A stretch of 64,000 nucleotides of DNA from contig JACPVJ010000126.1 of the NCBI GenBank assembly GCA_016191785.1, positions 1 to 64,000 of the forward strand. Reading direction: 5' to 3'. The position numbers and the translations under genes were made by a program. The stretch comes from Myxococcales bacterium. GTDB lineage: Bacteria; Myxococcota_A; Polyangia; Polyangiales; Polyangiaceae. The first letter of the stretch is position 1. Every line of letters starts with the position of its first letter. Positions 14,941 to 33,226 of this stretch are shown piece by piece. The notes beneath the pieces are model-generated. The model saw only the letters and a program-made list of their open reading frames with translations, was not told where the DNA came from and did not search any database.

Positions 14941-15008
14941 GCCGGCACACCCGAGCCGACAAAGTCAAGGGGCGCTCCCGGAGCTCGGCGCGTGCCACCC
15001 TGACCGCG

Positions 15009-17302: not shown

Positions 17303-17309
17303 GAAAAAC

Positions 17310-17783: not shown

Positions 17784-17824
17784 CCGGCCGCGAAACCGCA
17801 ACCTGACGAGAAGAGAGAAAACCC

Positions 17825-18643: not shown

Positions 18644-18655
18644 GCTCGTCCACGA

Positions 18656-18701
18656 GCTCGGGCGCGCGCCCAAAACCCAAGTCCCAAGCGCGCGCCCGAG
18701 C
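18656..18701 (+). terminator. strong hairpin after the capsid candidate
   Basis: Perfect 14-bp arms GCTCGGGCGCGCGC (18656-18669) and GCGCGCGCCCGAGC (18688-18701) around an 18-base loop. A mixed T/C tract follows (TTCTCTCCCCCTTTC). It may end or stall transcription, or protect the upstream mRNA, raising capsid expression over downstream genes. Confidence 0.65.
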
Positions 18702-18741
18702 CGTGGCGTTCTCTCCCCCTTTCTGCCTGCCCAGGTGACCC

Positions 18742-19697: not shown

Positions 19698-19701
19698 GCC
19701 C

Positions 19702-20364: not shown

Positions 20365-20774
20365 GTCGGTTTTCGACGGCACCCAAGCCGTTCTTTCTGC
20401 GCTGGTCCGTGTGGCGCTACTCGACGGCGGCCCGTGACCTCTACGCGCAGCGCAACGGCTATCAGGTCTATTCGGGATTCTCCGGCGGACTCGAGACCGG
20501 ATACTGGAAGCTGCCGTTTCCGCTGCGCGCCGTGGAGTGGTCGCTGACTGCGACGGGTTTCGCTCACACTCAGCCAGTGGTCTTCCGGCTCTACCGGGCG
20601 AGCAACACCGTGCTGGTGGACACTCTGACTCATACCGTTGGGACCTCTCTGATCGTGCGCCCCATCAGCGAGCTACTCGCCGCGGACGAAAACATCTGCG
20701 TCCGCGTCATCGACCCGGGCCAAGGTGCCGACTACCAGACGAGCATTGAGCTCATGCTGCGGGGGTGGATGTGA
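20361..20774 (+). CDS. aromatic-rich virion candidate
   Basis: 137 residues, GTG start overlapping the previous stop. Rich in Trp, Tyr and Phe (FFLRWSVWRYSTAARDLY), then beta strands to the end (MLRGWM). Might contact a receptor or a membrane. No family recognised. Confidence 0.5.
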   Translation: MSRFSTAPKPFFLRWSVWRYSTAARDLYAQRNGYQVYSGFSGGLETGYWKLPFPLRAVEWSLTATGFAHTQPVVFRLYRASNTVLVDTLTHTVGTSLIVRPISELLAADENICVRVIDPGQGADYQTSIELMLRGWM

Positions 20775-20953
20775 GTCCCTTTCGCACGCTGCCGGCCGGC
20801 GCAGTGGAAATCCCAAAGCACAACGAGGGGCTTGCGGTGCTGCCCCTGCACGCTGCCGAGGACTGGCTCAAGCTCTTGCGCCTGGTCGTGGAGCTCGACG
20901 CCCGCGTGAGGGCGCTCGAAACCGCCCAAACGCCCAAAGAGGCGACCCGGTGA
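20771..20953 (+). CDS. short protein sharing an N-terminal motif with the transglycosylase
   Basis: 60 residues, GTG start overlapping the previous stop. It begins SPFRTLPAGAVEIP; the next product begins TYAWRTLPSGAVEVD. The shared RTLP(A/S)GAVE(I/V) segment occurs at the same place in both. The rest is one amphipathic helix (LKLLRLVVELDARVRALE), possibly a coiled coil. Function unknown. Confidence 0.55.
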   Translation: MSPFRTLPAGAVEIPKHNEGLAVLPLHAAEDWLKLLRLVVELDARVRALETAQTPKEATR

Positions 20954-21558
20954 CCTACGCCTGGCGCACCCTCCCGAGCGGCGCCGTCGAGGTGGACGGC
21001 AAGCTTCCCGAGCTCGACCCGTCGAGCCTCGCCGTGCTCCGCGCGCGCGTCATGCGCTGGCGCGCTCTCGCCGAGAAGCACTCGGCCCGCACCGGTGTTC
21101 CGGTCGCCTGGATTCTCGGAGTCATCTTCGCCGAGACCGGCGGAGTGCCTACCCTGACCTCGCCGAAAGGCGCCTACGGGCTCATGCAGGTGATGCCGTT
21201 CAACTGGGGCGGACGCACCCGCGAGCAGATGGCCGACCCCGACACCAACATCACCGTTGGCTCGAACATCCTCGCCGGGCACGTCAAGCGCATGGGCCGC
21301 GACTTGCCCAAGGTCGCGAGCGGCTACAACGGCGGCGCCGAGCGCAATGGAGCGCCGCACCCGAGCACCAAGAGCCCGTGGGGGATGGTGGAAAACAAGG
21401 GCTACATTTCCAAGGTAGTCGCGGCGGCAAACTCCACCCTGCGCGAGCTCGCCGAACCCCCAAAAGCGGGAGCCCCGGCGGCCCCGGGGCAAGCGACGAC
21501 GACCGAGGAGCTTCTGACCATGAGTCTGCTCGCGTGGAAGGTGCTCAAGTGGATGTGA
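20950..21558 (+). CDS. lytic transglycosylase (SLT domain) with hydrophobic C-terminus
   Basis: 202 residues, GTG start overlapping the previous stop. Catalytic Glu62 lies in IFAETGG, followed by GLMQVMP (77-83) and SGYNGG near 133, the three signatures of the family-1 SLT fold. It cleaves the MurNAc-GlcNAc bond of peptidoglycan. The N-terminal RTLPSGAVE motif matches the preceding gene. The C-terminus LLTMSLLAWKVLKWM is an amphipathic/hydrophobic helix. The lack of a signal peptide and these tags suggest a virion-bound entry enzyme. Confidence 0.88.
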   Translation: MTYAWRTLPSGAVEVDGKLPELDPSSLAVLRARVMRWRALAEKHSARTGVPVAWILGVIFAETGGVPTLTSPKGAYGLMQVMPFNWGGRTREQMADPDTNITVGSNILAGHVKRMGRDLPKVASGYNGGAERNGAPHPSTKSPWGMVENKGYISKVVAAANSTLRELAEPPKAGAPAAPGQATTTEELLTMSLLAWKVLKWM

Positions 21559-21827
21559 CCCCCGCTTCCGCGCTTCACCCCGAGCTCGACCAGCGCTTGG
21601 CGCGCCTCGAGGCGGTGACCGGCCAGGTCTTCGAGCTCGTCAGGGCGTGGGCGGACGAAGCGCAAGCGCTCCGCGAGCGTCAGCTTCGCGTCGAGCGCGA
21701 GCTCGCCGAAGAACGCGAGCGCGCGCGCCGACTCTCTCAGCGCCTCGCGCGCGTCGAGCGCGAGGCGGACACCCCGACCGAGCCGAGCGGGCTCGCGCCA
21801 CTGCCGGACCCGGAGCACGTCACGTGA
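21555..21827 (+). CDS. coiled-coil protein
   Basis: 90 residues, GTG start overlapping the transglycosylase stop. Heptad-like helix from about 10 to 75 (LDQRLARLEAVTGQVFELV, then ERERARRLSQRLARVERE). No membrane segment. It may pair with the following N-anchored coiled-coil protein. Confidence 0.55.
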   Translation: MTPASALHPELDQRLARLEAVTGQVFELVRAWADEAQALRERQLRVERELAEERERARRLSQRLARVEREADTPTEPSGLAPLPDPEHVT

Positions 21828-22181
21828 ATGGACCCCGCAACGTACCTGATAGCCAACTGGGGAATCCCCGGGGCCCTGGTGGTGGCGGTGTCGATCTGGG
21901 CAGTCCGCAACCAGCGCACGCTCGAGGCGGGGACGGCGGAGCACGCCAAGAAGACGCTCGAGCTCCAGGCGGCGCACGCGGCCAAGCTCGAGGCGGCGGC
22001 GGCGGAAGCGAAGGCGGAGCGGGAGCGGCTACTGGCCAAGCTCGAGGCGGAGCACGCGGCGCGTCTCTCGGACGCCCAAGCGAACACCCGTGCGCTTCTC
22101 GACCTGAACGAACAGGTCCACGCGACGGTGGACCAGCTCTCGGAGCTGGCCGAGCGCCTGAGCGCTCGCCCGAGGAGCTAG
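21828..22181 (+). CDS. N-anchored coiled-coil membrane protein (possible spanin/holin accessory)
   Basis: 117 residues, ATG immediately after the previous stop. One membrane helix at about 8-26 (IANWGIPGALVVAVSIWAV) is followed by a long charged coiled coil (LEAAAAEAKAERERLLAK). This topology resembles inner-membrane spanin subunits and some virion assembly proteins. The gene lies among peptidoglycan-active genes. The role is inferred from topology only. Confidence 0.55.
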   Translation: MDPATYLIANWGIPGALVVAVSIWAVRNQRTLEAGTAEHAKKTLELQAAHAAKLEAAAAEAKAERERLLAKLEAEHAARLSDAQANTRALLDLNEQVHATVDQLSELAERLSARPRS

Positions 22182-22216
22182 CGGCGGAGTTCGACGACGA
22201 CGCGAGCCCCACCGGA

Positions 22217-22309
22217 GTGATCGAGCGAGCGCAGCTCGAGGCCCGCGCCGCGCTCGACAGCCAGCGCGCGCGCCTGGCCGAGCTCTGCGCGCGCTACTGC
22301 GAGGATTGA
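22217..22309 (+). CDS. very short ORF with uncertain start
   Basis: An open frame ends at 22309, where its stop overlaps the ATG of the next gene. No ATG, GTG or TTG lies near the upstream stop; the first usable start is GTG at 22217, giving about 30 helical residues (IERAQLEARAALDSQRARLAE). Codon style fits the element. The frame is open further upstream, so an unusual start is possible. Confidence 0.3.
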   Translation: MIERAQLEARAALDSQRARLAELCARYCED

Positions 22310-22668
22310 TGGCCTTCTACGACGCGCCCCGCTCCTGGTACTTCCACGACCTGTGGAAGCGCACGCTCTCGACCTGGGGAGGCGGGCAGAGCTGGACGCG
22401 CGTCGACCTGTCGCGCCCCGGGCCGACGCTCGATTACCCGGACTTCGCCAAGGCGGAGACGGACGGCAACATCGTCACGCTCGCGGCGCACGGTCAGACG
22501 GGCATCGCGCGGCGCTTTCGCTGGAACGGCTCCGCGTGGGTGCTCGAGGCGCAACGCTCGACCGGCGACACCGGCGCTTTGCCCGAGGGCACGGCCGCCG
22601 CGAGTGACGGCTGGGTGCTCGTACCGGCGCTCGTCGCGGCGCTCATCTTCTGGGACGTGGTTCGGTGA
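22309..22668 (+). CDS. small protein with C-terminal membrane anchor
   Basis: 119 residues. ATG 22309 overlaps the previous stop; TTG at 22306 is less likely. The N-terminal 90 residues look soluble and aromatic-rich (FYDAPRSWYFHDLWK). The C-terminal segment WVLVPALVAALIFWDVV is a membrane helix. Tail-anchored topology as in several others here. Function unknown. Confidence 0.55.
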   Translation: MAFYDAPRSWYFHDLWKRTLSTWGGGQSWTRVDLSRPGPTLDYPDFAKAETDGNIVTLAAHGQTGIARRFRWNGSAWVLEAQRSTGDTGALPEGTAAASDGWVLVPALVAALIFWDVVR

Positions 22669-22672
22669 AGTG

Positions 22673-22879
22673 ATGGGAAGCTATCGCGTGGCCGTGAGCA
22701 AGAGCCCGGTAGGCCCGTGGCGAGAAGTCATGCGCATACCGGCTGACGACACGGACAACATGGCAGCATGGCCAGCCAAGGGCCGCTGGAACCGCTGGGC
22801 CGAGCTCCACTGCGAAGTGATGGGCGCGGCGTGGAAAGCGGCCGGCTGGGAAATCCGGCTCTCGCGGCACTCCCTATGA
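22673..22879 (+). CDS. small protein, unknown
   Basis: 68 residues, ATG with GTGAAG upstream. Trp-rich (GPWREVMRIP, WPAKGRWNRWAELH). No motif recognised. The next ATG overlaps its stop. Confidence 0.45.
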   Translation: MGSYRVAVSKSPVGPWREVMRIPADDTDNMAAWPAKGRWNRWAELHCEVMGAAWKAAGWEIRLSRHSL

Positions 22880-23460
22880 AAACCCTCGGCTCGGCCATCC
22901 TCGCCGCGACCCTGGCCGAGCTCGCCGGGACGGGCGGCAAGCCGAGCGCCGCGCGAATCGCGGCCTACTTCGCGCCCTGCGAGCGAAACGGAAAGCCCCT
23001 CGGTCTGAAGGCTGGCAACTGGTGCGCGGCGGGCGCCTGCTTCGTCGCGATGCAGACCGTCAAGACAGACCAGCTCGAGCGCGCCGGCCTGCCCCATCGC
23101 TACCGCGCCGCCGGCCTCGAGCTCGAGGAGGACGCGAAGCGCCTCGGTGCCTGGCGCCCGGTCGCCGAGCTCCGCGCCGGACGGGCGACGCTTGCCCCCG
23201 GTGACCTGCTCATCCTGTCGCGCGGCTCCGAGAGCTGGCAGAGGCACGTTGCCCGCGTCGAGCGGTGCGAGGGCTCGCGCGTGGTGACCATCGACGCCAA
23301 CGGCCCGGGCGGCGGCTGGGCGCGCGTCACGCGCGAGCTCGGCGTGACGAGCCTGCTCGGAGCGATCGCCCTGCCGGACTCGCCGCCGGCGGCGCACGGC
23401 GGAGGCGAAGACCTCGCGGCAATCGCGGTGCTCGGCGCCCTCGCTTTTGCCCTGGCTTGA
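22876..23460 (+). CDS. amidase-like (CHAP/NlpC-type) protein with C-terminal hydrophobic anchor
   Basis: 194 residues, ATG overlapping the previous stop. Cys50 (GNWCAAGACFVAM), His124 (WQRHVARVE) and Asn142 (IDANG) match the Cys-His-Asn order of papain-like peptidoglycan amidases/endopeptidases. The C-terminus EDLAAIAVLGALAFALA is nearly the same kind of tag as that of the LysM protein (acidic pair, then Leu/Ala/Gly). It would cut the peptide part of peptidoglycan. Anchored form suggests a virion or lysis role. Confidence 0.7.
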   Translation: MKTLGSAILAATLAELAGTGGKPSAARIAAYFAPCERNGKPLGLKAGNWCAAGACFVAMQTVKTDQLERAGLPHRYRAAGLELEEDAKRLGAWRPVAELRAGRATLAPGDLLILSRGSESWQRHVARVERCEGSRVVTIDANGPGGGWARVTRELGVTSLLGAIALPDSPPAAHGGGEDLAAIAVLGALAFALA

Positions 23461-23518
23461 GCCAGTCGTGCCACAGTGCATTTGCACTCGGGCAAGCGCC
23501 GGGTGTATGGGAAAGAAG

Positions 23519-23562
23519 TGGGCCCCGCGGTGCTGGAAACACCCGGGGCCGTGACCCGAAAC
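23519..23562 (+). terminator. GC-rich hairpin between amidase and lipoprotein genes
   Basis: GGCCCCG and CGGGGCC arms flank a loop containing GGAAAC. There is no T tract, so it may be a weak terminator or an attenuator that isolates the lipoprotein gene from the late operon. Nothing else was seen in this 124-base gap except a GAAAGG ribosome-binding site. Confidence 0.4.
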
Positions 23563-23584
23563 CTTCTGAAGAAAGGTCCGAGCG

Positions 23585-24154
23585 ATGGGGAAACTAGCAC
23601 AGGGGACGATGGCGGCGGCGCTCTTGGTGGCGCTCGCCTGCTCGAGCACGAGCACCAACGAAGGCGCTTCGACGGGCGGCGGCGGTAGCTCCGGAGCCGG
23701 CGGCGGTTCGGCGGGGGCGAGCGGCGGGAGCGCGGGAGCGGGCGGGGCCTCGATCGGCGGGGCGAGCTCGGGCGGCTCGGGCGCCGGGAGCGCGCTCATC
23801 TGGTGCACCGAGGTCAAGGACTGCACCGCGCTCTGCGGAGCGCTGAAACCCATCTGCAATGCGGGAGACCCCTGCACCTGTAGCACCCCAGACTGTGAGC
23901 CCGGAAAGGTTGACGTGTGCCCTTCGGCGATGACGTGCAACAAGGGTTCGAGCTGTGTTCCCGATGGCACCATCCCACTCGAGGATTTCTGCTCCTGGCC
24001 AAGCAAGCGGTGTGTATCGGGGCTCATCTGCGGCGCGACCAACCTTCTTCCCAAGGACGGCGGAAGCTTCGAGTTTCGCTGCCGAAAACCCTGCGACCCG
24101 GCCAAGCCGCCGCCCGGCTGCTCGTGTGACAGCGTGTACAGGTGGTGCAAGTGA
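23585..24154 (+). CDS. Gly-rich Cys-rich lipoprotein (probable cargo gene)
   Basis: 189 residues. The signal peptide ends in the lipobox LVALACSS. Residues about 25-70 are GGSAGASGG-type repeats, then a Cys-rich domain with about 16 Cys (CTEVKDCTALCGALKPICN and others), disulfide-bonded in style. The architecture equals host lipoproteins such as the one at 58634-59566, so it was probably taken from a host. It sits apart from the virion block at the right end, as lysogenic-conversion genes do. It may alter the cell surface. Confidence 0.7.
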   Translation: MGKLAQGTMAAALLVALACSSTSTNEGASTGGGGSSGAGGGSAGASGGSAGAGGASIGGASSGGSGAGSALIWCTEVKDCTALCGALKPICNAGDPCTCSTPDCEPGKVDVCPSAMTCNKGSSCVPDGTIPLEDFCSWPSKRCVSGLICGATNLLPKDGGSFEFRCRKPCDPAKPPPGCSCDSVYRWCK

Positions 24155-24170: not shown

Positions 24171-24310
24171 CGTTCAGTGGTACACTTCAACCCACCCACC
24201 CGATGTTTCCAGCATGCCAAAACCGCCGAAAGGCCGCCCGTTCGCGCAGTGTCGCGCGTTCAGTAGTGCGTCGCCCGGACAAACGGCCCGCCAGGGTGCA
24301 CCCGTTCAGT
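24171..24310. repeat. three CGTTCAGT repeats near the right end of element A
   Basis: The octamer CGTTCAGT occurs at 24171-24178, 24257-24264 and 24303-24310, and a fourth time at 4091-4098 near the left end. The first and fourth share 13 bp, CGTCCGTTCAGTG. In the circle they flank the core. They could be integrase arm sites or replication iterons. Confidence 0.5.
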
Positions 24311-24400
24311 ATCCGTGCACTGGGGCTCTGCCCCTTCTGTGCGCGTCCGCTCCCGAGACCGGACCGGGCGTGCCTCTGCGGCCTCGGGGCGCCGGCCTGA
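24203..24400 (+). CDS. possible small zinc-ribbon protein
   Basis: Up to 65 residues from ATG 24203; GTG at 24296 would give 34 residues. The end reads LCPFCARPLPRPDRACLCG, a CxxC...CxC zinc ribbon. The upstream part is basic. The motif supports a real product, but the start is unsure and codon signals are weak. Confidence 0.4.
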   Translation: MFPACQNRRKAARSRSVARSVVRRPDKRPARVHPFSIRALGLCPFCARPLPRPDRACLCGLGAPA

Positions 24401-24528
24401 GCTCGCCGGACCCCTACGTCCGGCTCCGGGCGCTGGTCGCCGAGCTCGACCGGACCCGGGACGCGCGCATCGCGGCCCGGGCGGCGCTCGCCTCCGGGCG
24501 CTTCTGGCGATCGGGCGGTGAGGCGTGA
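24370..24528 (+). CDS. short helical protein, unknown
   Basis: 52 residues from GTG 24370. The frame is also open upstream to 24142. The helix VRLRALVAELDRTRDARIAA is charged and regular. The next gene's GTG overlaps its stop, which supports it as a coupled gene; the start could lie at a CTG overlapping the previous stop. Confidence 0.4.
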   Translation: MPLRPRGAGLSSPDPYVRLRALVAELDRTRDARIAARAALASGRFWRSGGEA

Positions 24529-24944
24529 GCGGGCGGGACCCTGATTGCTCGTGCGTCGTCTGCTGGCGATGCGCGGAGCGCGCCGAGCTGGCGCGCGCGC
24601 TTCAAGGGCTCGTGGGGATGCGCATCGAGCCCGGGCCTCGCTGTCCAGGGTGCGGCGGCCCTGCGCTCGGCGGGAGCGGAGGGGCGGAGCCGTTCTGTTC
24701 CTGGCGCTGCCGGCGGGCGGCCTCAGACCACGAGCGCGGAGATGATGCGCTTGGCGAGCGCGAGCGCGGAGCACGGGCTCGATGCGAGGACGCCTTTTGT
24801 CACCCGAGCGAAAGCGCTCGTGTGAGCAGTACCCCAAGCACTTCTGCTTTGGGGGTTCGTGGGAGCATGCAAGGAGAGAACAACATGAGTGAGAACAATG
24901 GGATGGGTGTGAGTTCTGGGATGGGTGCCGAAGGAGGGACTTGA
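24525..24944 (+). CDS. Cys-rich right-end ORF; circle-state upstream part of the left-end gene
   Basis: 139 residues as integrated, GTG overlapping the previous stop. N-terminal Cys clusters (CSCVVCWRCAERAEL; CPGCGGPALGG; FCSWRCRRA) form one or two zinc ribbons similar to the one at 13720-13830. An internal ATG at 24885 has GGAG eight bases upstream. Both starts are in frame with the att core and with 3964-4892, so in the circle the frame continues for 310 more codons. In the integrated state it stops within the tRNA 3' end. Two hairpins lie inside (24805-24820 and 24831-24855). Confidence 0.55.
   Translation: MSGRDPDCSCVVCWRCAERAELARALQGLVGMRIEPGPRCPGCGGPALGGSGGAEPFCSWRCRRAASDHERGDDALGERERGARARCEDAFCHPSESARVSSTPSTSALGVRGSMQGENNMSENNGMGVSSGMGAEGGT
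24831..24855 (-). terminator. hairpin downstream of tRNA-Leu
   Basis: ACCCCAAGCA and TGCTTTGGGGGT pair with small bulges around CTTC. On the minus strand it lies about 70 bases beyond the tRNA 3' end and could end its transcript; on the plus strand it lies just before the strong ribosome-binding site at 24873. No U tract is present. Confidence 0.35.
24873..24887 (+). promoter_or_regulatory. strong ribosome-binding site and ATG with no complete gene when integrated
   Basis: GGAG (24873-24876), eight bases, then ATG (24885). As integrated it opens a frame of only 19 codons ending in the tRNA gene. In the circle the same frame runs on through 3964-4892. The site is therefore best explained as the initiation region of the split left-end gene. 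Confidence 0.6.
24924..24942 (-). repeat. attR of element A (19-bp core within tRNA-Leu 3' end)
   Basis: Identical to 3945-3963. The copy here restores the acceptor stem and the 3' strand of the T stem of tRNA-Leu, so the host keeps an intact gene. Confidence 0.88.
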
Positions 24945-25009
24945 ACCCACACTCCCTTGCGAGACGCGGATTTTGAATCCGCCGCGTCTGCCAATTCCGC
25001 CACTTCGGC
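24926..25009 (-). tRNA. tRNA-Leu (anticodon CAA)
   Basis: 84 nt read on the minus strand. Acceptor stem GCCGAAG pairs with CTTCGGC, with discriminator A. The anticodon loop is TTCAAAA with anticodon CAA. There is a long variable arm as expected for Leu, and a T loop TTCAAGT. CCA is not encoded (ACCC follows). One T-T mismatch is present in the T stem. The 5' 43 nt come from the att core shared with element B and the 3' 17 nt from the core shared with element A. The native promoter is now about 7.5 kb away beyond element B. Confidence 0.93.
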
Positions 25010-25010
25010 T
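24967..25010 (-). repeat. attL of element B (44-bp core, tRNA-Leu 5' half)
   Basis: 44 bp from the anticodon loop through the tRNA 5' end, plus one base, identical to 32504-32547. The minus-strand frame of the B integrase crosses it in frame, encoding KWRNWQTRRIQNP, the usual peptide read from tRNA-Leu sequence. Confidence 0.9.
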
Positions 25011-26346
25011 TTTGCTGGTTTGCTGCTGGTTCGCGACTTGTACCTGACTCTTTTGGTGCGGGTCTAGGGGCAATCGCGGGGCAATGAAAGAACTCGGGGA
25101 TCGCTTCGTCCAGGGGCGCGAGCCAACCCAGGCCCAGCTCCTTAGCCGATCGGGCGGCCCTGCGGTAGCGGTTGATCATCTGGCTGGACCGATGCCCGGT
25201 CCGGTCTGCCACCCAGGTCTCGGTCTGCCCGGTGGCAAGTGCAAGCGTCACGAAGGTGCCGCGGAGGTCGTGGGCTCGGAGCCTGCCCCGGTTCGCGCCC
25301 TTCTCGATCAGCTCGAGGCGGTCGACGCCTGCGGCGGCCACATGGGCCCGAAGCCGTTCGGCCAGCTTTCCCACCGTGATGCGCTCGCCGGCCTCGTCGC
25401 AGAACACCAGGTCGCCACGCTCCAGCTTCCGCAGCTCGCACCACTTCAAGAGCGCCCGCCGCACGTCTTCACCCATGGCCCAAGTGCGCGGGTCATCGGT
25501 CTTGTTCTCGTCCAGCGCGACGGTTCCGCGCTCCAAGTCGATTTCGTTCCCGAGCCTCATCTCCGCGGCCTCGCCCACGCGCGCGCCCTCGCGGTCGCAG
25601 AAGCCCCAGAACACGCGCCACTCGAGGGGCGTGGACGAGCAGCCGAGCAGCTTCGCGTCGTCCGCGGGGTGCAGGTACGGATAGGCTGGTGGCTTGCCCG
25701 GCTTCGGAAGCCAGCCACGCGGCAACGGGTTCGCCTTGATGAGCTTCAGCGGGTAGACCGCGAGCGAAGCGACCCGGTGGACGAGCTGCGCGTAGTGTCG
25801 CCGCGTGGCTGGCCGCTTCGCCACGGCTGGCAGGTGTCGCAAGACATCGTCAGCGTGCTCCACCGTGAAGCAGTCGATCGAAACGTCCCCGAGCTTGATG
25901 CCACCGACGTCGATGGCGCAGAGCCGCTTGAGCCGCGCGGCGTCCAGCTCGGAATCCTTCGCCCTCACGTGGTCCGGGTAGCTCTTGTGGAGCTCCCCGC
26001 TGGTCCACTGCTCCGCGACTTGGCCGAAGGTACGGACGGCCCGCGCACTGTGGGCCACCAGCTCGCCCCCCAGAAGCTCGCCGGCCACGTGCACATGCCC
26101 GGGCAGCCAACTGGGCGGGTCCGAAGCGGCGCGCTCGAGCAACTCGATGGCCTTGGGGTTCCCGAGGACGTTGGCCTTGGTGAATCGTGCCGCGATTCGC
26201 GCCAGCAGCGCGGCGCGCGCGTTCGCTTCGCCTTCGGTGCGACAGGTCGGGAGCTGAAACGTTGTGCGCTTGCCCCCCACTCGGACCCGACAGGACAGCG
26301 ATCCATCCGATGCCCGTCTCACCTCGCCCGTGGCTTCACGCGCCAT
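24967..26346 (-). CDS. int: tyrosine recombinase of element B, 3' end displaced by integration
   Basis: 460 codons lie between the ATG and the end of the att core. Catalytic residues: R256 (GARVGEA), H359 and R362 (HDLRGTF), H385 (TGHRS), Y394 (INRYRR). No stop occurs before the core. As integrated, the frame reads on through tRNA-Leu into element A to 24187 (719 codons in all). In the circle it continues into 32503-32243, adding 86 residues and stopping properly, for a 546-residue protein. Integrase genes with the attachment site inside the 3' coding end are known from Myxococcus phage Mx8, where the integrated form has altered activity. Confidence 0.92.
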
Positions 26347-26544
26347 GGCGGCCTCCGGCGGCGTGCGTTAGCTTCTGCATTGCTCGTGCCTCTCGTCCAG
26401 GTTCGGGCCCTGTCCCCGGCTGTTAGCGCAGCGCGGGGACGGTTCGTTCTAGGATAGCCACTTCGGGGGCGATGGAAAGGGACACACGCCCCGCCGCACC
26501 GACCGGGCTTGACGCGGCCGGGCATCGGCGGGACACGCCTGAGC

Positions 26545-27063
26545 ATGCGCCGGGCTGTGTTGGTGGTGATGCTCGCTTGCAGCAACTGCGTTCGGGCTCG
26601 TCCGACAGCGCCGCCACCGGTCGCCTTGCCTGTCGAGATGATGTCGGGGCCCGACGGCAAGCCGGCGGCGTTCATCCGCTGTGGTGCCCGGGCTCAGGAC
26701 TGCTTCCGCATCGCCGGGCTGCTGTGCCCGAACGGCTACGCCACCCACGACCGCGACAAATCGCTCGGTCCGACCCATGTGGCCAGGGGTGGAACCACGA
26801 CAATGGTGGACAAGACCGCGGTTCACTCGGGCAACACGACCGCCTACACCGAGCAGGACAACACGCTGTTTGTGTCGTGCCCGGGCATTGACGACCGGCG
26901 GCGCGAAATCGAGGCCCGCGATCGGGCCGAGTGGGAGGCGAGCGAACGCCGCTCGGCCATGCCGCCGCGTTGCGGTTACACGTGCGCTCCGCAGCCCCGC
27001 GAGTGCCCGTTTCTCGACAAGGACGGCTGCTACAAGCCCGAGTACGAAGTTCCGCCGCAGTAG
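26545..27063 (+). CDS. small lipoprotein, cargo gene of element B
   Basis: 172 residues, the only plus-strand gene of element B. MRRAVLVVMLACSNC is a short signal peptide with a lipobox Cys at about 12. The mature protein has about 10 Cys, some in pairs (CGYTCAPQPREC). It is divergent from the integrase, with a 198-base gap that probably holds both promoters; no clear -35/-10 pair was fixed. It may be a surface or exclusion protein. Confidence 0.6.
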   Translation: MRRAVLVVMLACSNCVRARPTAPPPVALPVEMMSGPDGKPAAFIRCGARAQDCFRIAGLLCPNGYATHDRDKSLGPTHVARGGTTTMVDKTAVHSGNTTAYTEQDNTLFVSCPGIDDRRREIEARDRAEWEASERRSAMPPRCGYTCAPQPRECPFLDKDGCYKPEYEVPPQ

Positions 27064-27170
27064 GCGCGCGACGCCAACACTTCGCAGAGCTGGCGTCGGA
27101 ACCAGCCAGCGGGGGGCCATGCGAACCGTCTCGGCACTCGGAGAGGCGGCTCGAGGGAAGCCACCCGAGA

Positions 27171-27662
27171 TCACGGCGTTTCCCCGATCGCCAGCAGCAG
27201 CGCAGAACGGGCGTCCGTGTTCGCGAGCAGCGCGGCACACAGCGCCGGCCACGCGCGCCGATCGCCCGCGAGTTCTTGTGCTGCGCGCCGGATGAGTTCG
27301 TCGTCAGGAAGCTGGTCCATGCCTCCCGTCTCGCATTGCCGCTCGGTCGCGCGGCGCGCGAGCGAGGCGTTTGCGGCGTTCGAGACGATTAGCCCGGCAG
27401 CGCGGACGCGGACCATCGCCGGCTGCTCGGTGTCCGTTGCAAGTTCGACCAGCACGTCGACCGCTTGCGCGGCCGCGCAGTCTAGCCGCGCAACAACGTC
27501 CACGAGGCGGCCGCCGACAGCCGCCGAGTAGCGCGCTGCGAAGCCAGGCTCGCGACTCCACCTCCAAACCGTGCCTCGGCCCACGCGCAGCTCGCGCGCC
27601 GTTTCGGGCACGCTCTTGCCCTCAAGGAGGAGCCGGAGCGCGGCGTCTTTACCCGGTTCCAT
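27171..27662 (-). CDS. HTH protein resembling phage small terminase subunits
   Basis: 163 residues. An N-terminal helix-turn-helix (GKSVPETARELRVGRGTVWRW, residues about 15-35) is followed by EPGFAARY and helical repeats, like the homeodomain-type phBC6A51 / small-terminase-like proteins of phages and their satellites. In SaPI-type satellites a private small terminase redirects packaging. Equally it could be a plain regulator. Overlaps the upstream gene by 14 bases, so it is the end of the minus-strand operon. Confidence 0.6.
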   Translation of the reverse strand: MEPGKDAALRLLLEGKSVPETARELRVGRGTVWRWSREPGFAARYSAAVGGRLVDVVARLDCAAAQAVDVLVELATDTEQPAMVRVRAAGLIVSNAANASLARRATERQCETGGMDQLPDDELIRRAAQELAGDRRAWPALCAALLANTDARSALLLAIGETP

Positions 27663-27918
27663 GTTCGGTCTCGCTTGGTCCCCCGGGTGCGCTCTCGTCT
27701 CTCAGGGCAGCGACCATGGCGGACCCGTGCCCGCGGGCCTTCATGATGGAAACGGTCATCAGCGGTTTGATTGGCGTGGCGCCTTCCGGCCGAGGTGGCC
27801 GGGGTAGTGACTTCTCGTTCGGCTCGATGTCAGCCAGCCTCCCCGGCAGATCGTTGGCGGAAACCACCTCGACGTCGGGCACCCCCGCGCCCTGGCTGTG
27901 ACCGGTCCGGAGCGCCAC
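27649..27918 (-). CDS. small protein of the primase operon, unknown
   Basis: 89 residues from GTG 27918, whose G overlaps the last base of the upstream stop; an ATG at 27951 would overlap the previous gene by 34 bases. Pro/Arg-rich and without a motif. Coupling to both neighbours supports it. Confidence 0.45.
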   Translation of the reverse strand: MALRTGHSQGAGVPDVEVVSANDLPGRLADIEPNEKSLPRPPRPEGATPIKPLMTVSIMKARGHGSAMVAALRDESAPGGPSETEHGTG

Positions 27919-28283
27919 TAGGCGGCCCTCCCGGGGCGATCCGCGGGGCAATCGGTGGCCGTGGACGGCAATCCAAGCGTGTTCTCCGCACCGTCCCCCG
28001 GACTGTTAGTCCGTCGCGTGAGCCCGAGCGCCTGCCGGACAGCTGCCGCGGGGTCGGCCGGGCCAGCGGCGACCGCGGCCGGCTCGACGCTGGTCGAGGC
28101 CACCCGAGCGAGCGCGGCCATGAACTCGCTCGCCACCACGAAGCGCTTTCGCCCGTGTCCGACGAAGCGGACGCCGAGCTCGCTCGCCGCGTCGCGGACC
28201 CAGCGCCAGGGCGCACCCACCGCGCTCTCGGCGTTCGCTGGTCCGAGCAGCATCGGGGCCACCGGGGACTTGGGGTCCTTCAT
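27918..28283 (-). CDS. small DNA-binding protein (excisionase-like helix-turn-helix)
   Basis: 121 residues, ATG overlapping the previous stop (ATGA). WRWVRDAASELGVRFVGHGRK and RFVVASEFMAALA fit the winged-helix pattern of MerR/excisionase-like proteins (turn helix, then a short beta wing). The C-terminal half is low complexity. It could promote excision or regulate the operon. Moderately supported. Confidence 0.5.
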   Translation of the reverse strand: MKDPKSPVAPMLLGPANAESAVGAPWRWVRDAASELGVRFVGHGRKRFVVASEFMAALARVASTSVEPAAVAAGPADPAAAVRQALGLTRRTNSPGDGAENTLGLPSTATDCPADRPGRAA

Positions 28284-28546
28284 GCTCGCCACCCCTTCCC
28301 GCCGGCGCGGACAGCCACGAGCCGAGCCCCATGGAACACCTCGAGCGCATCTCTCACCGCCGGGTGCTCTCGGACCTGCCACTCCACCTCGAGCAGCCGA
28401 AGCAGCTCGGCGCGGTGCTCACGAAGCAGAGCCATGGAGCGCTCGACGTCACGCGGCTTAGGGCCAGCCACGCGGAGCTTCCCCCCGGCCGCGGACACCA
28501 TGAAACCGCGTTCCCGAAGCGCGGACAACGTCTCGGCGGGGCTCAT
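28280..28546 (-). CDS. small protein with TubC-N-like fold pattern
   Basis: 88 residues, overlapping both neighbours by four bases. The sequence LSALRERGFMVSAAGGKLRV then LREHRAELLRLLE matches the short pattern seen in phage/plasmid proteins next to primases and in TubC docking domains. It probably partners the primase-helicase. Name is by resemblance only. Confidence 0.6.
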   Translation of the reverse strand: MSPAETLSALRERGFMVSAAGGKLRVAGPKPRDVERSMALLREHRAELLRLLEVEWQVREHPAVRDALEVFHGARLVAVRAGGKGWRA

Positions 28547-31023
28547 AGCTCCACCTCGAAGGCGGGGGCCGGCCGTTCCGGGGAGGCCGCAGCGGAAGCG
28601 CCGCGCGGCGCCCCTTGGGACATTGGGACAGGTTGGGACACGTTTTCCCTAAGAGCCCCCTTAGCGAGAAAACACTTTGAAGAGCTCTCGGGGGCTGCTG
28701 TCCCTTGCTGTCCCAATGTCCCTTGGCCGACTTCGTCCGGGCTGAGCAAGCGGACGTTTTTCCACAGTCGAATGCTGCCCGATTTGCCGCCTTCGACCTT
28801 ACGTTCCGCCAGCTTCGCGCCGAAGTCTCGCGGGCCGATCGGATTCCTCACTCCGCTTTCGCGGCACCATTCTTCGTATGCCGCGCGGAGGTCGCGCTTG
28901 CTGACGGTGGCGCCGGCCTCGAACGCGCAGCACTCCGAGAGGAACCCGCCGACCACGTCCATCTCGGCCCGGTAGTCCGCGGTGGAGCGCTCGACGGCGG
29001 CGCACCGGCCGAACCCCTCGCGCTGATAGGCGAGGCAGCCAGCCACGGCCCAAGCCAGGACGGCGGCAGCGTGCTCGGGCTCTCGGAGCCTGCCCTTGAT
29101 GCTCGGGTCCTGCCTCTCGGGTGGGATGACAGCCGTCAGCGGAATCCGACGCATCCTGGCCCACATGCCGGCGTCGTCGTCGCGAGCCCTCGGGGCATCG
29201 TTCGCGGCGAGTAGCAGCGTGAAGCTCGGGCGGAATGTGATCTCGCTCTCGAACTTGGCGGCGGCGGTGATTTCGTCGCCACCGGTCACGCGCTTGACCA
29301 GGGCTTCGTCCCACCGGGCGCCCTTGCGCACCTCGACGCTGGTCACCAGCCGAGCGCCGGCCAGCCGCACCAAGTCGCCGCGGTTCCCGCCAACGGTCTG
29401 CCGCTGTAGCCATGTCTCGAAGTCAGCGCTGGCCGCGTAGTCCCCGAACGCGCCGTGGAGCGCCTCGAGCAGCGTGCTCTTGGCCGTGCCGGGCTCGCCG
29501 AAGACGAAAAACAGGGCCCGCTCTAGTGGTTCGCCAATCAGCGAATACCCGGCCACCCTTTGCAGGTAGGCGGCGAGCTCGGCGTCCCCGGCGGTGGCGT
29601 CGTGGAGCACGCGGTCCCACAAGTCGCTCCGAGAATCGGGGGCGAACGGAACCAGGGTGCTCTTCGTGATCAAGTCCGAGCGCCGGTGCTCTCGGAGCTG
29701 CCCGGTGCGGAGGTCCACCGTCCCGTTGGGCGCGTTCAGGGTCCAGGGGTCCGCATCGAGCGCGTTCGCGACGATGGCCACTCCGGGCTCGGTCGCGGCG
29801 AGCTTGACCATGGCGGCCATCCGCTCGGCGCTCTCGCTCCGCATGGCGTGCTTGGCGACCGCGCTTCGCTGCTCTTCGGTCGGCGCGCGCGCCGCTTCGG
29901 CGAAGATGGCGCGGACGGTGTCCTTCCCGAGCTGATAGACATGCCTGGTCTCGTCCCACTGCCAGCGCTCGCCGGACCATGACAGCCACTTGCGCCGTTG
30001 CGGCGAGTAGCGGACCGACTCCCGGTGCTGCGCCACGAAGCGCTCGCCGTTGCCCAGGTCGGTCAGGTTGAAGTCGCCTGCCATCGGTGCAGCGGTCTTG
30101 CCGCCCGAGCTTGCACTGCTCTTGGGTGTGGCCGACGGTCGGGCCTCGGCTTCGGGGACGTCGCGCGGTTGGCTTCGGCTCGCAGCTAGCGCGCTCGCGA
30201 TCGTCCTTTCAATCTCGCTCTGCCCCAGGCCGGCCGCTCTGCCCGCCCCGCACATGGCTTCCCGCACGGCGACAGCATCGAGCGCACCGCTGGCGACGAG
30301 CTGTCCGAGCCCGAAGGCTTTGGCGTTCAGCGTGGCGTTTCGCTCCCCGTTCTGCGCGCTTCGCACTGCGGCGATGGCGCTGTCCATCGCGCCCTCGAGG
30401 TAGCGACGGCGACGCTCGAGGTAGCGACGGCGACGCTTATCGCTCTCGTGACCTACGCTCGGCCTTGATGTCGGCGCGGGCTGCATGGGCTCGAGATCTC
30501 GGCGGTGTTCCGCGAGCGCTCGGTCGGGGTCGAGGGTTTCCCCGGTGAGGTCGATGCACTCCACGTCCCCGCTGGGCATGAACCAGAAGCGGCTCGGGTC
30601 CTTCGTCTGACCGTCGATGCGATGGCCGGCGGCCGCGGCGCGCTTTGCTGCCCACTGCCAGAGCTCGGCGTGTTCTTCCGGTGTGACCGACCGCGCGAGC
30701 GGGAGCACCACACGGAAGCGGTGAGCGTTTTGGGTGTGACTCTTCGTGGTGTGGATGAATCCGTAGAAGCCACCCCAAACCTGTTTCGCGGCATCGAGCG
30801 TCGTGGCTCCCGAGTCGTAGTCGAGCGCGATGGCGGCCACCTCGCGGACGTTGGCTTTTTTGCGCTCGTTGCCCTCGAAGACAGCGGGGCTCCACCCAGG
30901 CTGCTCATGCTCGCCTCTGAAGCGGCGGGGCTTGCGCAAGAGGTCGAAGGTCTCGGCCCATGGCGCGTCGCGCCGCTGGCCGGTCGTGGCCGCGAGATTC
31001 CGCCAGAGCGTGACGCTGGCCAT
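28543..31023 (-). CDS. P4-family primase-helicase
   Basis: 826 residues from ATG 31023; an ATG 43 codons upstream is in frame but adds low-complexity sequence. N-terminal primase-like region (about 30-170) with ALDYDSG and HRFRVVLPLA. A linker follows, then D5-N type sequence (YSPQRRKWLSWSGERW) near 370-420. The SF3 helicase has Walker A GEPGTAKS at about 508-515 and the downstream LLAANDAP and MWARMRRIP motifs. The C-terminal winged helix is at about 715-770. It would start and unwind the element's own replication after excision. It leads the minus-strand operon. Confidence 0.88.
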   Translation of the reverse strand: MASVTLWRNLAATTGQRRDAPWAETFDLLRKPRRFRGEHEQPGWSPAVFEGNERKKANVREVAAIALDYDSGATTLDAAKQVWGGFYGFIHTTKSHTQNAHRFRVVLPLARSVTPEEHAELWQWAAKRAAAAGHRIDGQTKDPSRFWFMPSGDVECIDLTGETLDPDRALAEHRRDLEPMQPAPTSRPSVGHESDKRRRRYLERRRRYLEGAMDSAIAAVRSAQNGERNATLNAKAFGLGQLVASGALDAVAVREAMCGAGRAAGLGQSEIERTIASALAASRSQPRDVPEAEARPSATPKSSASSGGKTAAPMAGDFNLTDLGNGERFVAQHRESVRYSPQRRKWLSWSGERWQWDETRHVYQLGKDTVRAIFAEAARAPTEEQRSAVAKHAMRSESAERMAAMVKLAATEPGVAIVANALDADPWTLNAPNGTVDLRTGQLREHRRSDLITKSTLVPFAPDSRSDLWDRVLHDATAGDAELAAYLQRVAGYSLIGEPLERALFFVFGEPGTAKSTLLEALHGAFGDYAASADFETWLQRQTVGGNRGDLVRLAGARLVTSVEVRKGARWDEALVKRVTGGDEITAAAKFESEITFRPSFTLLLAANDAPRARDDDAGMWARMRRIPLTAVIPPERQDPSIKGRLREPEHAAAVLAWAVAGCLAYQREGFGRCAAVERSTADYRAEMDVVGGFLSECCAFEAGATVSKRDLRAAYEEWCRESGVRNPIGPRDFGAKLAERKVEGGKSGSIRLWKNVRLLSPDEVGQGTLGQQGTAAPESSSKCFLAKGALRENVSQPVPMSQGAPRGASAAASPERPAPAFEVEL

Positions 31024-31135
31024 CGTGCCGCCACCTCGGTCTCGGTCCGCGTGCCGCGGGGAATGCGAAGCAGCGCCGCTTGGACGAACCGGGCGGCGAG
31101 CCTCGGGGATTGTCGCGCTGACGTGAACCGACCGG

Positions 31136-31396
31136 TCACCGGCCGACGGCACGGAGCGCCTCCCGGCTCTTGGCCTTCCCGTTGACGCGAACGAACTCGA
31201 CCACCGCCCGACGGCAACGGGCGTGGCGAGGCATGATGCTGGCCAGCCGAATCACACGAACGGTGTGAGGGCTGACGCCGGCAAGCCCGGCGACTTCGGC
31301 GTCGCTCAGGCCGTGAACTTTGGCAATCTGCTTGAATCTCTCGATTGCGGATGTGTCGTTGTTCGGCTCGCCTGCGTGGGCGGATTGGTGTGCCAT
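31136..31396 (-). CDS. small helix-turn-helix regulator
   Basis: 86 residues from ATG 31396. RFKQIAKVHGLSDAEVAGLAGVSPHTVRVIRLA is a Cro/C1-type helix-turn-helix at residues about 22-55. The rest is basic. It lies just before the primase gene on the same strand and may be the element's repressor or activator. Confidence 0.65.
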   Translation of the reverse strand: MAHQSAHAGEPNNDTSAIERFKQIAKVHGLSDAEVAGLAGVSPHTVRVIRLASIMPRHARCRRAVVEFVRVNGKAKSREALRAVGR

Positions 31397-31485
31397 CGTG
31401 GTGCTTCCGTGGTCACGACACAGCGGTCTCGTGGACTCGCCTGCGTGACGACTCGGGCGCAAGGCGCCCTCGGTTTGTGCCCCAC

Positions 31486-31635
31486 GGTCGTTTGACCAGA
31501 CCGGACGGTTGCTTCGCTGTCGCTAGGCTTCTCGTAATTGCTCAGGTCACGGTCCCTGCCGGTCGTTTTGCCAGACCGGACGGCTGCCTGAATCTCGCCA
31601 GGCGTCTCGTGAATTCAAGGGACACGGCGCCCTTT
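31486..31635. repeat. two imperfect 75-bp tandem repeats upstream of the HTH-primase operon
   Basis: Units 31486-31560 and 31561-31635 both contain GGTCGTTT(T)G.CCAGACCGGACGG followed by CGCTAGGCTTCTCG or CGCCAGGCGTCTCG. They fill the 272-base gap upstream of the HTH gene, where no other feature was seen. Possible operator or replication-origin repeats. Confidence 0.5.
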
Positions 31636-31668
31636 CAGCCGCAACTCTGCCGTGCCACTGCTCGCCCG

Positions 31669-31890
31669 TCAAGTTCTTTTCGTGACCCCTTGGGGTTGAG
31701 GGGTGAGCGCCCGAGCGTGCCAAGCTCGGCGTGTGGGCAGGCGCCGGCGGTAGAGCGCCTGGTGGTCCCACTGCGTTCCGGTCGCCATGCTGATGTGGTT
31801 GTTCCCATTCCAGCGGGTCTCTTCCTCCCAGTGCTTGCTCGCGTTGTCGGTGTCCACGATCGTCCCGTCAGGCATGCTGTACTTGCTCAT
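31669..31890 (-). CDS. small protein, start of a larger conserved family, probably shortened
   Basis: 73 residues. The first 48 residues (SKYSMPDGTIVDTDNASKHW, then WNGNNHIS and SQ-like TQWDHQALYR) resemble the start of a small bacterial family of about 100 residues that continues with an aromatic-rich end. Here the frame passes instead into Arg/Thr-rich sequence and stops. It may be shortened by a frameshift, or simply diverged. Function unknown. Confidence 0.45.
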   Translation of the reverse strand: MSKYSMPDGTIVDTDNASKHWEEETRWNGNNHISMATGTQWDHQALYRRRLPTRRAWHARALTPQPQGVTKRT

Positions 31891-32009
31891 TCGGTCCTCG
31901 TTCTCCGGCGCACGGTGGCGCCTTCGATGCGGCAGGCAGGGAGCGACATGCCCTCGGCCCCGCTCACTGCTCGCGACGCGGGGTCACGGGCACGGAGCGA
32001 GGTCCGAGG

Positions 32010-32246
32010 TCAGGTCCGCCGCGGCGAGAACGGCCAGATGTCGAGCAAGTCCGCCAGCGCGACGACCAGCGACCCGAGGTCGCCCCGGCAGAGGCGCAGC
32101 GTGTCGCAGAGCACGAATTCCCCGCTGCGAGCGCAATAGCCACGCTGGATGACGAGCAAGCTGTGCCGCTTCTCGACGCGGAGCCTATACTCGGTCGTGC
32201 CGTAGCGCCCGCGCACCACGCGGACAGCGGGAAGCGCGCGGGTCAC
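32010..32246 (-). CDS. small protein coupled to the integrase 3' end
   Basis: 78 residues from GTG 32246, whose GTGA overlaps the stop of the displaced integrase segment. AGGAGGGG lies just upstream, inside the integrase coding sequence. Beta-rich pattern (RYGTTEYRLRVEKRHSLLVI, FVLCDTLRLCRGD). The coupling shows that the upstream frame is truly translated in the circular state. Function unknown. Confidence 0.55.
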   Translation of the reverse strand: MTRALPAVRVVRGRYGTTEYRLRVEKRHSLLVIQRGYCARSGEFVLCDTLRLCRGDLGSLVVALADLLDIWPFSPRRT

Positions 32247-32503
32247 TTCCCCCTCCTGGCCCGTTCGGACTCGAGATCCACTACCGAGCTCCGCGCCTTG
32301 CGCCGCGCCTCGAGCTCCCGCGCCAACACCTCGCACACCGTCCACTGACCCGCCGCGCTCGCGCGCTCGAGGGCAGTGGCGATGGCCGCTTCGACGGCGT
32401 CCTGATTGCCCCCGGAATGCCCCGCCGAAGCCCCTGCTCGTTCCCCTTCGGCGATCGGCGCGTCAGCAATCTCGCGCTCTTGCGGAATCTCTGCGGCTTC
32501 GAT
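32243..32503 (-). pseudogene. int (3' part): displaced 3' end of the element B integrase (86 codons)
   Basis: The open frame enters from the 44-bp core in the same phase as the integrase at the other end, and codes IEAAEIPQEREIADAP...ELEARRKARSSVVDL and stops at 32243. The frame upstream of the core here belongs to host DNA and has no start of its own fit for this product. It becomes the proper C-terminus of the integrase when the element circularises. The helical, basic sequence suits a C-terminal regulatory tail. It is 'broken' only in the integrated state. Confidence 0.85.
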
Positions 32504-32547
32504 CGGATTTTGAATCCGCCGCGTCTGCCAATTCCGCCACTTCGGCT
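32504..32547 (-). repeat. attR of element B (orphan 5' half of tRNA-Leu)
   Basis: 44 bp identical to 24967-25010. It is the original tRNA 5' half, now cut off after the anticodon loop. The host's own tRNA promoter remains next to it. Confidence 0.9.
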
Positions 32548-32600
32548 GGGGAGCGAGGTCTATAACCGATCTCGTTTCGATTTCCCAGCGGGTCATCGGC
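32548..32600 (-). promoter_or_regulatory. probable native promoter of tRNA-Leu, now separated from the tRNA
   Basis: On the minus strand TATAGA (32559-32564) lies 12 bases before the tRNA 5' end, at the right place for a -10 box. A -35 match is weak (TGGGAA region). It now reads into the orphan tRNA half and the displaced integrase end. Confidence 0.35.
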
Positions 32601-32638
32601 TGGCCGAAGGCCGACGGGTCAGGTAGCTTCGCGGGCCC

Positions 32639-33226
32639 ATGGCGCGGCGCCCGACCCCCGGCGGATCTCGCGGCCCTCAGCCGTTGGGCCAGCTGCTCAC
32701 GGTCGCGCGACAGACCGCCGCGCGGCGCGCGGGCGTGGCGCTCGATCGTGAGACCTGGCGCGAAGTGGCGGGCGCGCGGATCGCTCAGCGCTCGGCGCCC
32801 GGCAGCCTCGAGGGCGGGGTGCTCGAGGTGACGGTCGCCTCCCCGGTCTGGGCGCAAGAGCTCTCGTTTTTGGCCGAAGACATCGTCGGCAAGCTGCGCG
32901 AGCGCGGGGTGGCCGTCACCCGCATTCGCTTTCGCACCGGCAAGGTCGAGGCCGCGGCGCCGCGTGAGCCGGCGCCACGGCGGGCGAAGCCCATCGAGCT
33001 GCCCGAGGACGCGAAGCAGCGCCTTGCCCAGATCGACGATCCGGAGCTGCGAGAGGTGATCGCCCGGGCGATGGGACAGTCCCTGGCCAACCAGGCCCAG
33101 GCAGGCAAACCGGAGCTCAAGCCAGCCGCTCGAGCCCCTCGATCCGCTGCGCCAGGAAGCGCTCGTTCGGACCGAGACGCGCCGAAACCGAGCGGAGCAC
33201 GGCGACGTAATCGCGAAGAAGACTGA
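32639..33226 (+). CDS. DUF721 (DciA-like) protein
   Basis: 195 residues. The DUF721/DciA core spans about 12-105 (LGQLLTVARQTAARR, then W.EVAG.RIA..S.P, VLEVTVASPVWAQELSFL). DciA proteins help load the replicative helicase DnaB in bacteria lacking DnaC. The C-terminal 90 residues are basic and low-complexity. The last 110 bases overlap the convergent FHA gene. Assignment to the domain is good; the loading role is inferred from the family. Confidence 0.75.
   Translation: MARRPTPGGSRGPQPLGQLLTVARQTAARRAGVALDRETWREVAGARIAQRSAPGSLEGGVLEVTVASPVWAQELSFLAEDIVGKLRERGVAVTRIRFRTGKVEAAAPREPAPRRAKPIELPEDAKQRLAQIDDPELREVIARAMGQSLANQAQAGKPELKPAARAPRSAAPGSARSDRDAPKPSGARRRNREED

Follow-up and report, generated by a model that had tools for sequence, protein, structure and literature searches.

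Integration can leave an element's integrase gene ending in DNA that the element did not bring. When the attachment site lies inside that gene, the question is whether the segment stranded at the element's far end belongs to the enzyme, and what the enzyme would gain or lose with it. We examine this question for an element in a 64,000-nucleotide stretch of DNA (the window) from a Myxococcales bacterium of the Polyangiaceae (GCA_016191785.1, contig JACPVJ010000126.1, positions 1-64,000, forward strand). As read from the DNA, attP falls within the integrase gene itself, and the full-length protein is readable only from the circle (or a tandem).

An integrase gene divided at its own att core

The integrated element spans 24967..32503 from core to core (7,537 bp, no strand assigned) and is bounded by direct repeats: a 44-bp att core occurs in identical copies at 24967-25010 and 32504-32547, and the repeat extends 0 bp to either side. 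The integrase-side copy (24967..25010, minus strand) spans the 5′ half of a tRNA-Leu(caa) gene (24924..25009, minus strand), which is whole after integration with its 5′ half supplied by the element. The far-end copy (32504..32547, minus strand) is a displaced 5′ fragment of the same tRNA. Beyond it, the tRNA's native upstream region (32548..32650, minus strand) now faces the core fragment and the coding sequences behind it, and promoter scans of this displaced region returned no sigma-70-like promoter. The original prediction called for a search for empty sites, and one was found in a same-genus genome (G071, locus L244), where an uninterrupted tRNA-Leu(caa) lies beside homologous host flank and the upstream region is conserved.

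The integrase gene up to the core (25011..26346, minus strand) has 445 codons with a catalytic domain (PF00589, E 7.3e-17 at 239-398), by which it is assigned to the tyrosine recombinases (phage integrases). Residues R256, K282, H359, R362, H385 and Y394 are conserved in 7 of 7 aligned rows, and we take them to be the catalytic R-K-H-R-H-Y set of a tyrosine recombinase. The att core lies in frame within the gene, 3′ of the catalytic tyrosine, so that the whole catalytic set precedes it; read in that frame, the core supplies integrase codons 446-460. The frame from 26346 to 24967 (minus strand) is stop-free over 1380 nt. On the far side, in the same phase as the second core copy, a frame runs from 32503 to 32243 (minus strand), its 261 nt forming 86 codons and a TGA. 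Joining the two by computation, as in the circle, places integrase and tail in frame and yields 546 residues plus a stop; the integrated frame instead reads to 24187 and yields 719 residues. These coordinates and both protein lengths agree with the original prediction. The tail (32243..32503, minus strand) carries a conserved helical-hairpin motif. A 78-codon gene (32010..32246, minus strand) is coupled to it as predicted, with its GTG at 32246 overlapping the tail's TGA (GTGA) and AGGAGG just upstream; it has no Pfam or PHROG match.

The read-through of the integrated frame via tRNA-Leu (24187..24966, minus strand) looks non-coding, and probably is, because the G+C contents of its three codon positions are nearly equal: 0.72/0.69/0.70 over the 273-codon read-through past the core, whereas the integrase has 0.71/0.52/0.83 and the tail 0.75/0.58/0.77.

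The rest of the element includes a D5-type primase-helicase (28543..31152, minus strand; PF08706 E 1.1e-31, phrog_1156 E 2.4e-115), a small HTH-like DNA-binding protein (31136..31462, minus strand) with weak Pfam and PHROG matches, and an HTH protein weakly like small terminase subunits (27171..27662, minus strand; PF13384 E 8.2e-7). Among 9 element proteins scanned, there were no head or tail genes apart from the latter's weak small-terminase match (phrog_7344 E 7.6e-4). Judged from its genes (integrase, primase-helicase, small DNA-binding proteins), the element is plausibly satellite-like, in the manner of P4 or the PICIs.

Phase and homology of the tail among relatives

We mapped 24 tRNA-bounded elements with both cores located, searching within 20-kb stretches; the elements are 4.3-16.7 kb long. 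Duplicates were counted once (L103 = L065, L154 = L239, L156 = L233), and the repeat pairs L141, L149, L159, L182 and L207 were dropped as short or not tRNA-derived, L159 being the element later mapped as L229. For L083 and L079 an integrase match was present and the core was not found, while for C33 a second core was not found within 16 kb. Integrase and tail are in phase in 23 of the 24 mapped elements, which supports the prediction of an integrase changed at its 3′ end by integration; the exception is L233, where the integrase ends before its core. In one of the 23, L183, the sequence has an N gap of 2 bases and another core copy stands immediately ahead of the tail; the element is in phase only with that copy, which was chosen after a first mapping had put the tail in another frame. 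The tRNA is crossed in each of the three possible frames, by 9, 3 and 3 of 15 antisense 3′-half elements.

An open frame alone is weak evidence here because the DNA is 71% G+C and off-frames are often long too; past the window's own core, the +1 frame is also open for 73 codons. With the exception L233 left out of the count, tails of at least 60 codons occur in 23/23 integrase frames and 12/46 off-frames (Fisher 9e-10). On the sequence evidence, the case for the tail is homology together with phase, rather than openness. Of 13 int-first elements, none of which went into building the tail profile, 7 match that profile in the frame of the integrase (E 3e-12 to 2e-19), and the window's tail matches in frame at E 2.1e-28, the window itself being included in the profile. 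A clear match is missing for five of the 23 in-phase tails (C49, L205, L206, L210, L236), which therefore rest on phase and openness; that of L239 has E 0.046. Homologues of the tail occur in the same genome; across the class, 37 of 289 genomes carry them. We also observed this architecture again at many tRNAs and with divergent integrases, the tails often being homologous.

Intact integrase-tail ORFs, which the original prediction proposed to look for, are present in six relatives (L092, L095, L099, L100, L101, L118), five of them among 11 viral-contig loci and one among 80 genome loci; another of these 80 (L123 = L230, Sorangium) holds integrase and a divergent tail in one ORF. A tRNA-like stretch lies inside the fused ORF of L092, L095 and L118, where the longer, circle-form C-terminus can be read unjoined; no such stretch was found in the fused ORFs of L099-L101. 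The L095 contig is viral, 15 kb long and carries a terminal repeat of 127 bp, its stretch is tRNA-Leu-like, and the predicted fold of its integrase matches XerA, lambda Int and Tn1549 Int. In a tree of 41 rows, the window's integrase is sister to L092 (99/92). Neither a short tail profile (A1) nor the clade II integrases (A3) gave confirmed relatives in viral-contig scans, and a search of 50,697 phage records returned no match for the tail alone and one record for the integrase.

In 8 of 50 loci and, in a partly overlapping set, 4 of 32, the frame ends short of the tRNA. Rctr16k and L096 end early, a subclade with L156 and C33 is also tail-less, and the catalytic motifs of these tail-less relatives are intact. 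The original prediction held that free homologous elements with an integrase ending at the core or ahead of it would count against it; such relatives exist alongside the fused ORFs, and the design is therefore common, not universal. Judging by their genes, the tail is dispensable in some relatives.

What the tail may do

Neither Pfam nor PDB contains a relative of the tail. It is predicted to form a helical hairpin of about 50 residues (block pLDDT 92, 96, 96, 81) behind a disordered linker that holds the core peptide. Across 8 pairs its dN/dS is 0.17-0.71, with many values near saturation, and it looks to be under selection. Same-genus tails are more alike (p 0.012); host tracking is not claimed because p is only 0.05-0.07 among dissimilar integrases.

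We consider it highly probable that this architecture holds and that the tail is a functional part of the integrase. As read from the sequence, the full-length protein comprises the catalytic part, a linker encoded in part by the tRNA-derived core, and the C-terminal hairpin. Integration divides the gene at the core, leaving the catalytic part at one end of the element and the tail-coding segment at the other, and the integrated gene ends in whatever host sequence comes next. Because the insertion site is inside the integrase gene, the tail can be attached only while the element is circular. We infer a switch between two forms of the enzyme: the integrating form would be made from the circle and the excising form from the provirus, and therefore one gene would encode two enzymes. 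The tail would most likely favour attP x attB recombination, or hinder attL x attR, for example through protomer or partner-protein contacts. Its loss would keep the provirus in place, and excision by the tail-less form would not be undone at once. That the tail sets the direction of recombination has, in our judgment, about an even chance.

A strong competitor, to which we give somewhat less than an even chance, is that the tail is translated in the circle without setting direction. It would aid folding, stability or partner binding, and losing it on integration would be tolerated as a by-product of fitting attP into the gene's 3′ end. The position of every catalytic residue before the core, the tail-less relatives with intact motifs, and the prediction of the hairpin as a separate module (placement pTM 0.54) all fit this account, but packing explains poorly why divergent integrases should be split in the same way, in every phase and at many tRNAs. 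The changed form of the Myxococcus phage Mx8 integrase is moreover reported to differ in activity or specificity: integration swaps its C-terminal 112 residues for 13 and leaves it less active (PMC4701971), and the specificity of the integrated form is described as altered (PMC6070905).

An improbable alternative is that the tail is a degradation tag whose removal stabilises the provirus protein, as on the repressor and integrase of mycobacteriophages with integration-dependent immunity. The genetic logic described for them is the same, in that attP sits within a gene and integration removes a C-terminal tag (PMC9262239), but the predicted folded hairpin is no short tag, and most of the 23 tails finish with basic or polar residues (inspection by eye shows a final -LA in C49 alone and no final -AA). 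We disfavour still more strongly, as very unlikely, an independent small gene at the element's far end that is expressed in the provirus: although the tail is followed by a coupled gene with a ribosome-binding site and now has the tRNA's native upstream region directed towards it, the window's tail has no in-frame start codon before about codon 52, and tails are fused to the integrase in intact relatives and keep its phase in the mapped set. A chance open frame in G+C-rich DNA, for which the long off-frames past the cores might speak, is refuted for the class by the in-frame excess, the tail homology and the fused homologues, and its probability is negligible.

Known systems and wider reading

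Integrases altered by their own integration are reported from "very few integrative elements" (PMC4701971). As described there, Mx8 Int (prophage form IntX) is likewise a tyrosine integrase with attP in the 3′ part of its gene at a tRNA gene, and its C-terminus is replaced. By eye, the Mx8 Int sequence has a tRNA-like peptide and then a tail; it forms a very long branch in our tree. Homology between that tail and ours was not detected (hhalign probability 0.2, E 0.35). In contrast to Mx8, many elements here share the tail as a domain, and a core can consist of a tRNA's 5′ half. In its architecture the window's integrase is of the Mx8 kind.

Archaeal "suicidal" integrases (SSV1, pTN3, pT26-2) similarly have the recombination site inside an integrase gene that integration alters. 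They are reported to be split into Int(N) and Int(C), with the catalytic domain in Int(C) and both parts inactive, and such self-disrupting recombinases are described as exclusively archaeal (PMC8371274). Their att site falls between the N-terminal part and the catalytic domain, whereas here all catalytic residues precede the core, and integration costs the enzyme nothing but a C-terminal domain, with its catalytic part left intact. In mycobacteriophage integration-dependent immunity, attP also lies in a coding gene, attB in a tRNA, and a C-terminal piece is lost; the altered gene is reported to be the repressor and the lost piece an ssrA-like tag (PMC9262239), whereas our attP core lies in the integrase frame. 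Streptococcal ICEs in rumA are described as sharing an att site inside the integrase gene, and differ by a serine recombinase and a protein-coding target. At the level of titles and abstracts, in mostly open-access literature, we found no elements of such design in this order.

A broader reading, which we hold tentatively and with rather more doubt than conviction, is that elements across an order encode their DNA state in the integrase gene: a conserved, undescribed hairpin, fused only in the circle, would set direction and be swapped between elements at shared tRNA att sites, with tail and catalytic part evolving as separate modules. The design itself recurs across one family and order, to which Polyangium and Sorangium belong, and a circle-only domain is shared among the elements. 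This makes it possible to test how an integrase is fitted to the reaction required of it. A practical rule also follows: many chromosomal integrase annotations in this group are missing a domain, and the place to look for it is the element's far end.

The integrase frame and insertion site of the window element

The two 44-bp attachment cores bounding the 7,537-bp element (24967-25010 and 32504-32547) are identical, and the repeat does not reach beyond them. On the minus strand, the 460 codons of the integrase frame between 26346 and the end of the core at 24967 contain no stop, and past the second core the same phase stays open for another 86 codons before it stops at 32243; joining the ends computationally, the circle would encode 546 residues. 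These coordinates bear out the in-frame core, the continuation and the circle product of the original prediction. The 5′ half of tRNA-Leu(caa), a minus-strand gene at 24924-25009, makes up the core. The search for an empty site, also suggested there, succeeded in a genome of the same genus (locus L244, genome G071), where no insert separates the tRNA from the homologous far-end host flank (84% identity over 559 bp). Because L244 keeps tRNA and flank uninterrupted, the far end of the window element is the displaced host side.

The insertion separates tRNA-Leu from the sequence natively upstream of it, nearly identical in L244. This sequence now faces the core fragment together with the tail and its coupled 78-codon gene, and tRNA-Leu itself lies downstream of the integrase. 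Promoters were possibly exchanged by this insertion in the tRNA 5′ half (32010-32650); a scan found no sigma-70-like promoter on either side. For Islander, a 5′ fragment is reported in 159 of 3919 islands (PMC4383910). Beside the tRNA, the tract called element A (13859-24154) has mostly plus-strand frames, and ten of its proteins, when scanned, gave few PHROG matches, among them a RecA/DnaB-like ATPase and weak endolysin, spanin and holin hits, and one of the proteins has a weak CHAP match; the tract is possibly an undescribed phage-like element.

Integrase and tail phase across related elements

Since a G+C content of 71% makes open frames cheap, we tested the claim by comparison across elements. 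Within the window's own genome the tail has further relatives. A tail profile of three rows matched 26 of 377 genomes of the phylum at E <= 0.01, all matches below 1e-5 falling in one family. At E <= 3e-4 it gave 34 rows: the window, another locus (C9) whose tail row looks frame-shifted, and 32 tails, comprising 31 new regions and L022. A tRNA gene or fragment lies at most 400 bp upstream of 21 of the 32 tails, 17 of these 21 having an open frame from tRNA to tail, compared with 15 of 279 random windows from the same loci. No integrase match overlaps a tail in the 31 regions. Eleven of the 32 tails have an integrase match in their surrounding stretch, with a shared core in nine of the 11 (L022, L061, L064, L065, L073, L074, L076, L081 and L086), all nine in phase. 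C49, found via its integrase in the window's genome, is in phase, and the tail profile does not recognise its tail.

The integrase profile A2 supplied 91 loci (the best 80 of 99 genome loci plus 11 viral loci). Fifty of them have a tRNA no more than 300 bp from where the integrase ends; the integrase frame enters it in 42 of the 50 and ends before it in eight, and seven of the 50 tRNAs are on the integrase strand. A family search of 108 genomes gave matches in 63, and among the matches listed 60 further regions were picked: a tRNA is nearby in 32, overlapped by the integrase in 28 of these, and a tRNA-derived core pair is present in 13 of the 60 (L183, L190, L203, L205, L206, L210, L219, L222, L229, L233, L236, L239 and L240). 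Twelve of the 13 have an open tail that keeps the integrase's phase, counting L183 after correction at an N gap; in L233 the integrase stops short of the core. A tail profile built without these 13 recognised seven, in the integrase frame; by eye, four more carry a VVxLxxxRxRR-like C-terminal motif, and the L205 tail ends without one.

The nine tail-first elements, the window, C49 and the 13 integrase-first elements make 24 mapped elements, of which 23 have integrase and tail in phase. Tails of at least 60 codons were found in 23 of 23 in-frame versus 12 of 46 off-frame readings (Fisher 9e-10, L233 left out), related elements among those counted not being fully independent. Where the tRNA 3′ half is read antisense, phases 0, 1 and 2 were seen nine, three and three times; all three occur, so the tRNA itself does not dictate the phase match. 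The core lies in the tRNA 5′ half read sense, the window's type, in four elements, and in the 3′ half read sense, with the entire tRNA at the tail end, in three; L061 is without an assigned tRNA.

The tail can be absent or lost in relatives. Eight of the 11 tree rows whose integrases stop form one group with modest support (85/78), including L156 (the same locus as L233) and C33 of the window's genome. The C33 integrase ends at the tRNA edge, and no second core was found in the stretch examined; the integrases of Rctr16k and L096 end soon after the catalytic part. The in-phase junction expected from the original prediction stands in the pooled count, and its expectation that integrases do not stop at or before the core fails for some relatives.

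Intact frames and the nature of the tail

The proposed search for intact homologues elsewhere found integrase and tail in a single ORF at six loci (L092, L095, L099 and L118 by profile; L100 and L101 by eye). The viral contig L095 is 15,001 bp long and carries an exact terminal repeat of 127 bp, such as a circle gives; within its ORF, a 52-bp stretch matches the 3′ half of tRNA-Leu(tag) at 90% identity. The ORFs of L092, sister of the window integrase in a 41-row tree (99/92), and L118 contain 43 bp of tRNA-Lys (98%) and 48 bp of tRNA-Arg (81%), respectively; no tRNA stretch was found inside those of L099-L101. In L097, a tRNA-Leu-like stretch is followed by a short frame lacking the tail motif.

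By eye, long proteins of L095 (IMGVR_UViG_3300025154_000044) resemble tape measure, terminase and capsid proteins, and we read it as a very small tailed phage of the window's integrase lineage. L118, a 5.9-kb contig (JANLGX010000228.1) in a MAG named Gemmatimonadaceae, is the sole tail-type match in the genome collection named outside Myxococcota or Deltaproteobacteria, and could be misbinned. The Sorangium cellulosum So ce26 chromosome carries an intact ORF (L230, the same as L123) with a divergent tail. This ORF includes a 38-bp stretch from the 5′ half of tRNA-Leu(taa) (97%), and no tRNA was found beside it; a tandem, another integration route or a relic would explain this chromosomal integrase-core-tail ORF.

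Profile A4, run against 289 genomes of the class, detects the tail in 37 at E <= 1e-5, within one order only (33 in the window's family, four in two other families). Polyangium, Sorangium and Polyangiaceae MAGs belong to the group. Across 10 tail members, Pfam gave no significant family (the best value, 0.047, came from a single member), and a PDB sequence search with it returned nothing at E <= 1. Modelled from 18 rows, the L095 integrase shows a good catalytic domain resembling XerA, lambda Int and Tn1549 Int, a disordered stretch at 417-488 holding the core peptide, and helices at 492-506 and 510-529 (block pLDDT 92, 96, 96 and 81), a hairpin whose placing the model, at pTM 0.54, does not fix. 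Across eight pairs, tails have a dN/dS of 0.17-0.71 and integrases one of 0.17-0.83, with several values close to saturation.

Tail and integrase similarity are barely correlated (r = 0.18 when every pair is counted, 0.07 for pairs from different genera), which agrees with modular exchange without proving it. The integrases of L203 and L222 in genome G390 are 40% identical and their tails 63%; for the window and L022, both in the window's genome, the values are 26% and 43%. Distant integrases with closer tails within one genome hint at tail exchange, the general test being marginal.

A proposed role for the tail and its known counterparts

At the level of sequence, the in-frame core, the kept phase, the intact forms, the predicted hairpin and the empty site are established. 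In the proposed mechanism, the circle form of the integrase would integrate, the tail-less form would excise, and the tail would make the difference between them. Whether the tail sets the direction of recombination is, in our judgment, evenly balanced; a non-regulatory role for it is quite possible, if short of probable.

For Myxococcus phage Mx8, an altered specificity of the changed integrase is reported (PMC6070905), as is an exchange of 112 residues for 13 with lower activity (PMC4701971). The window integrase would work alike, as originally proposed, but homology between its tail and that of Mx8 was not detected. It differs from the archaeal suicidal integrases, which split off the catalytic domain.
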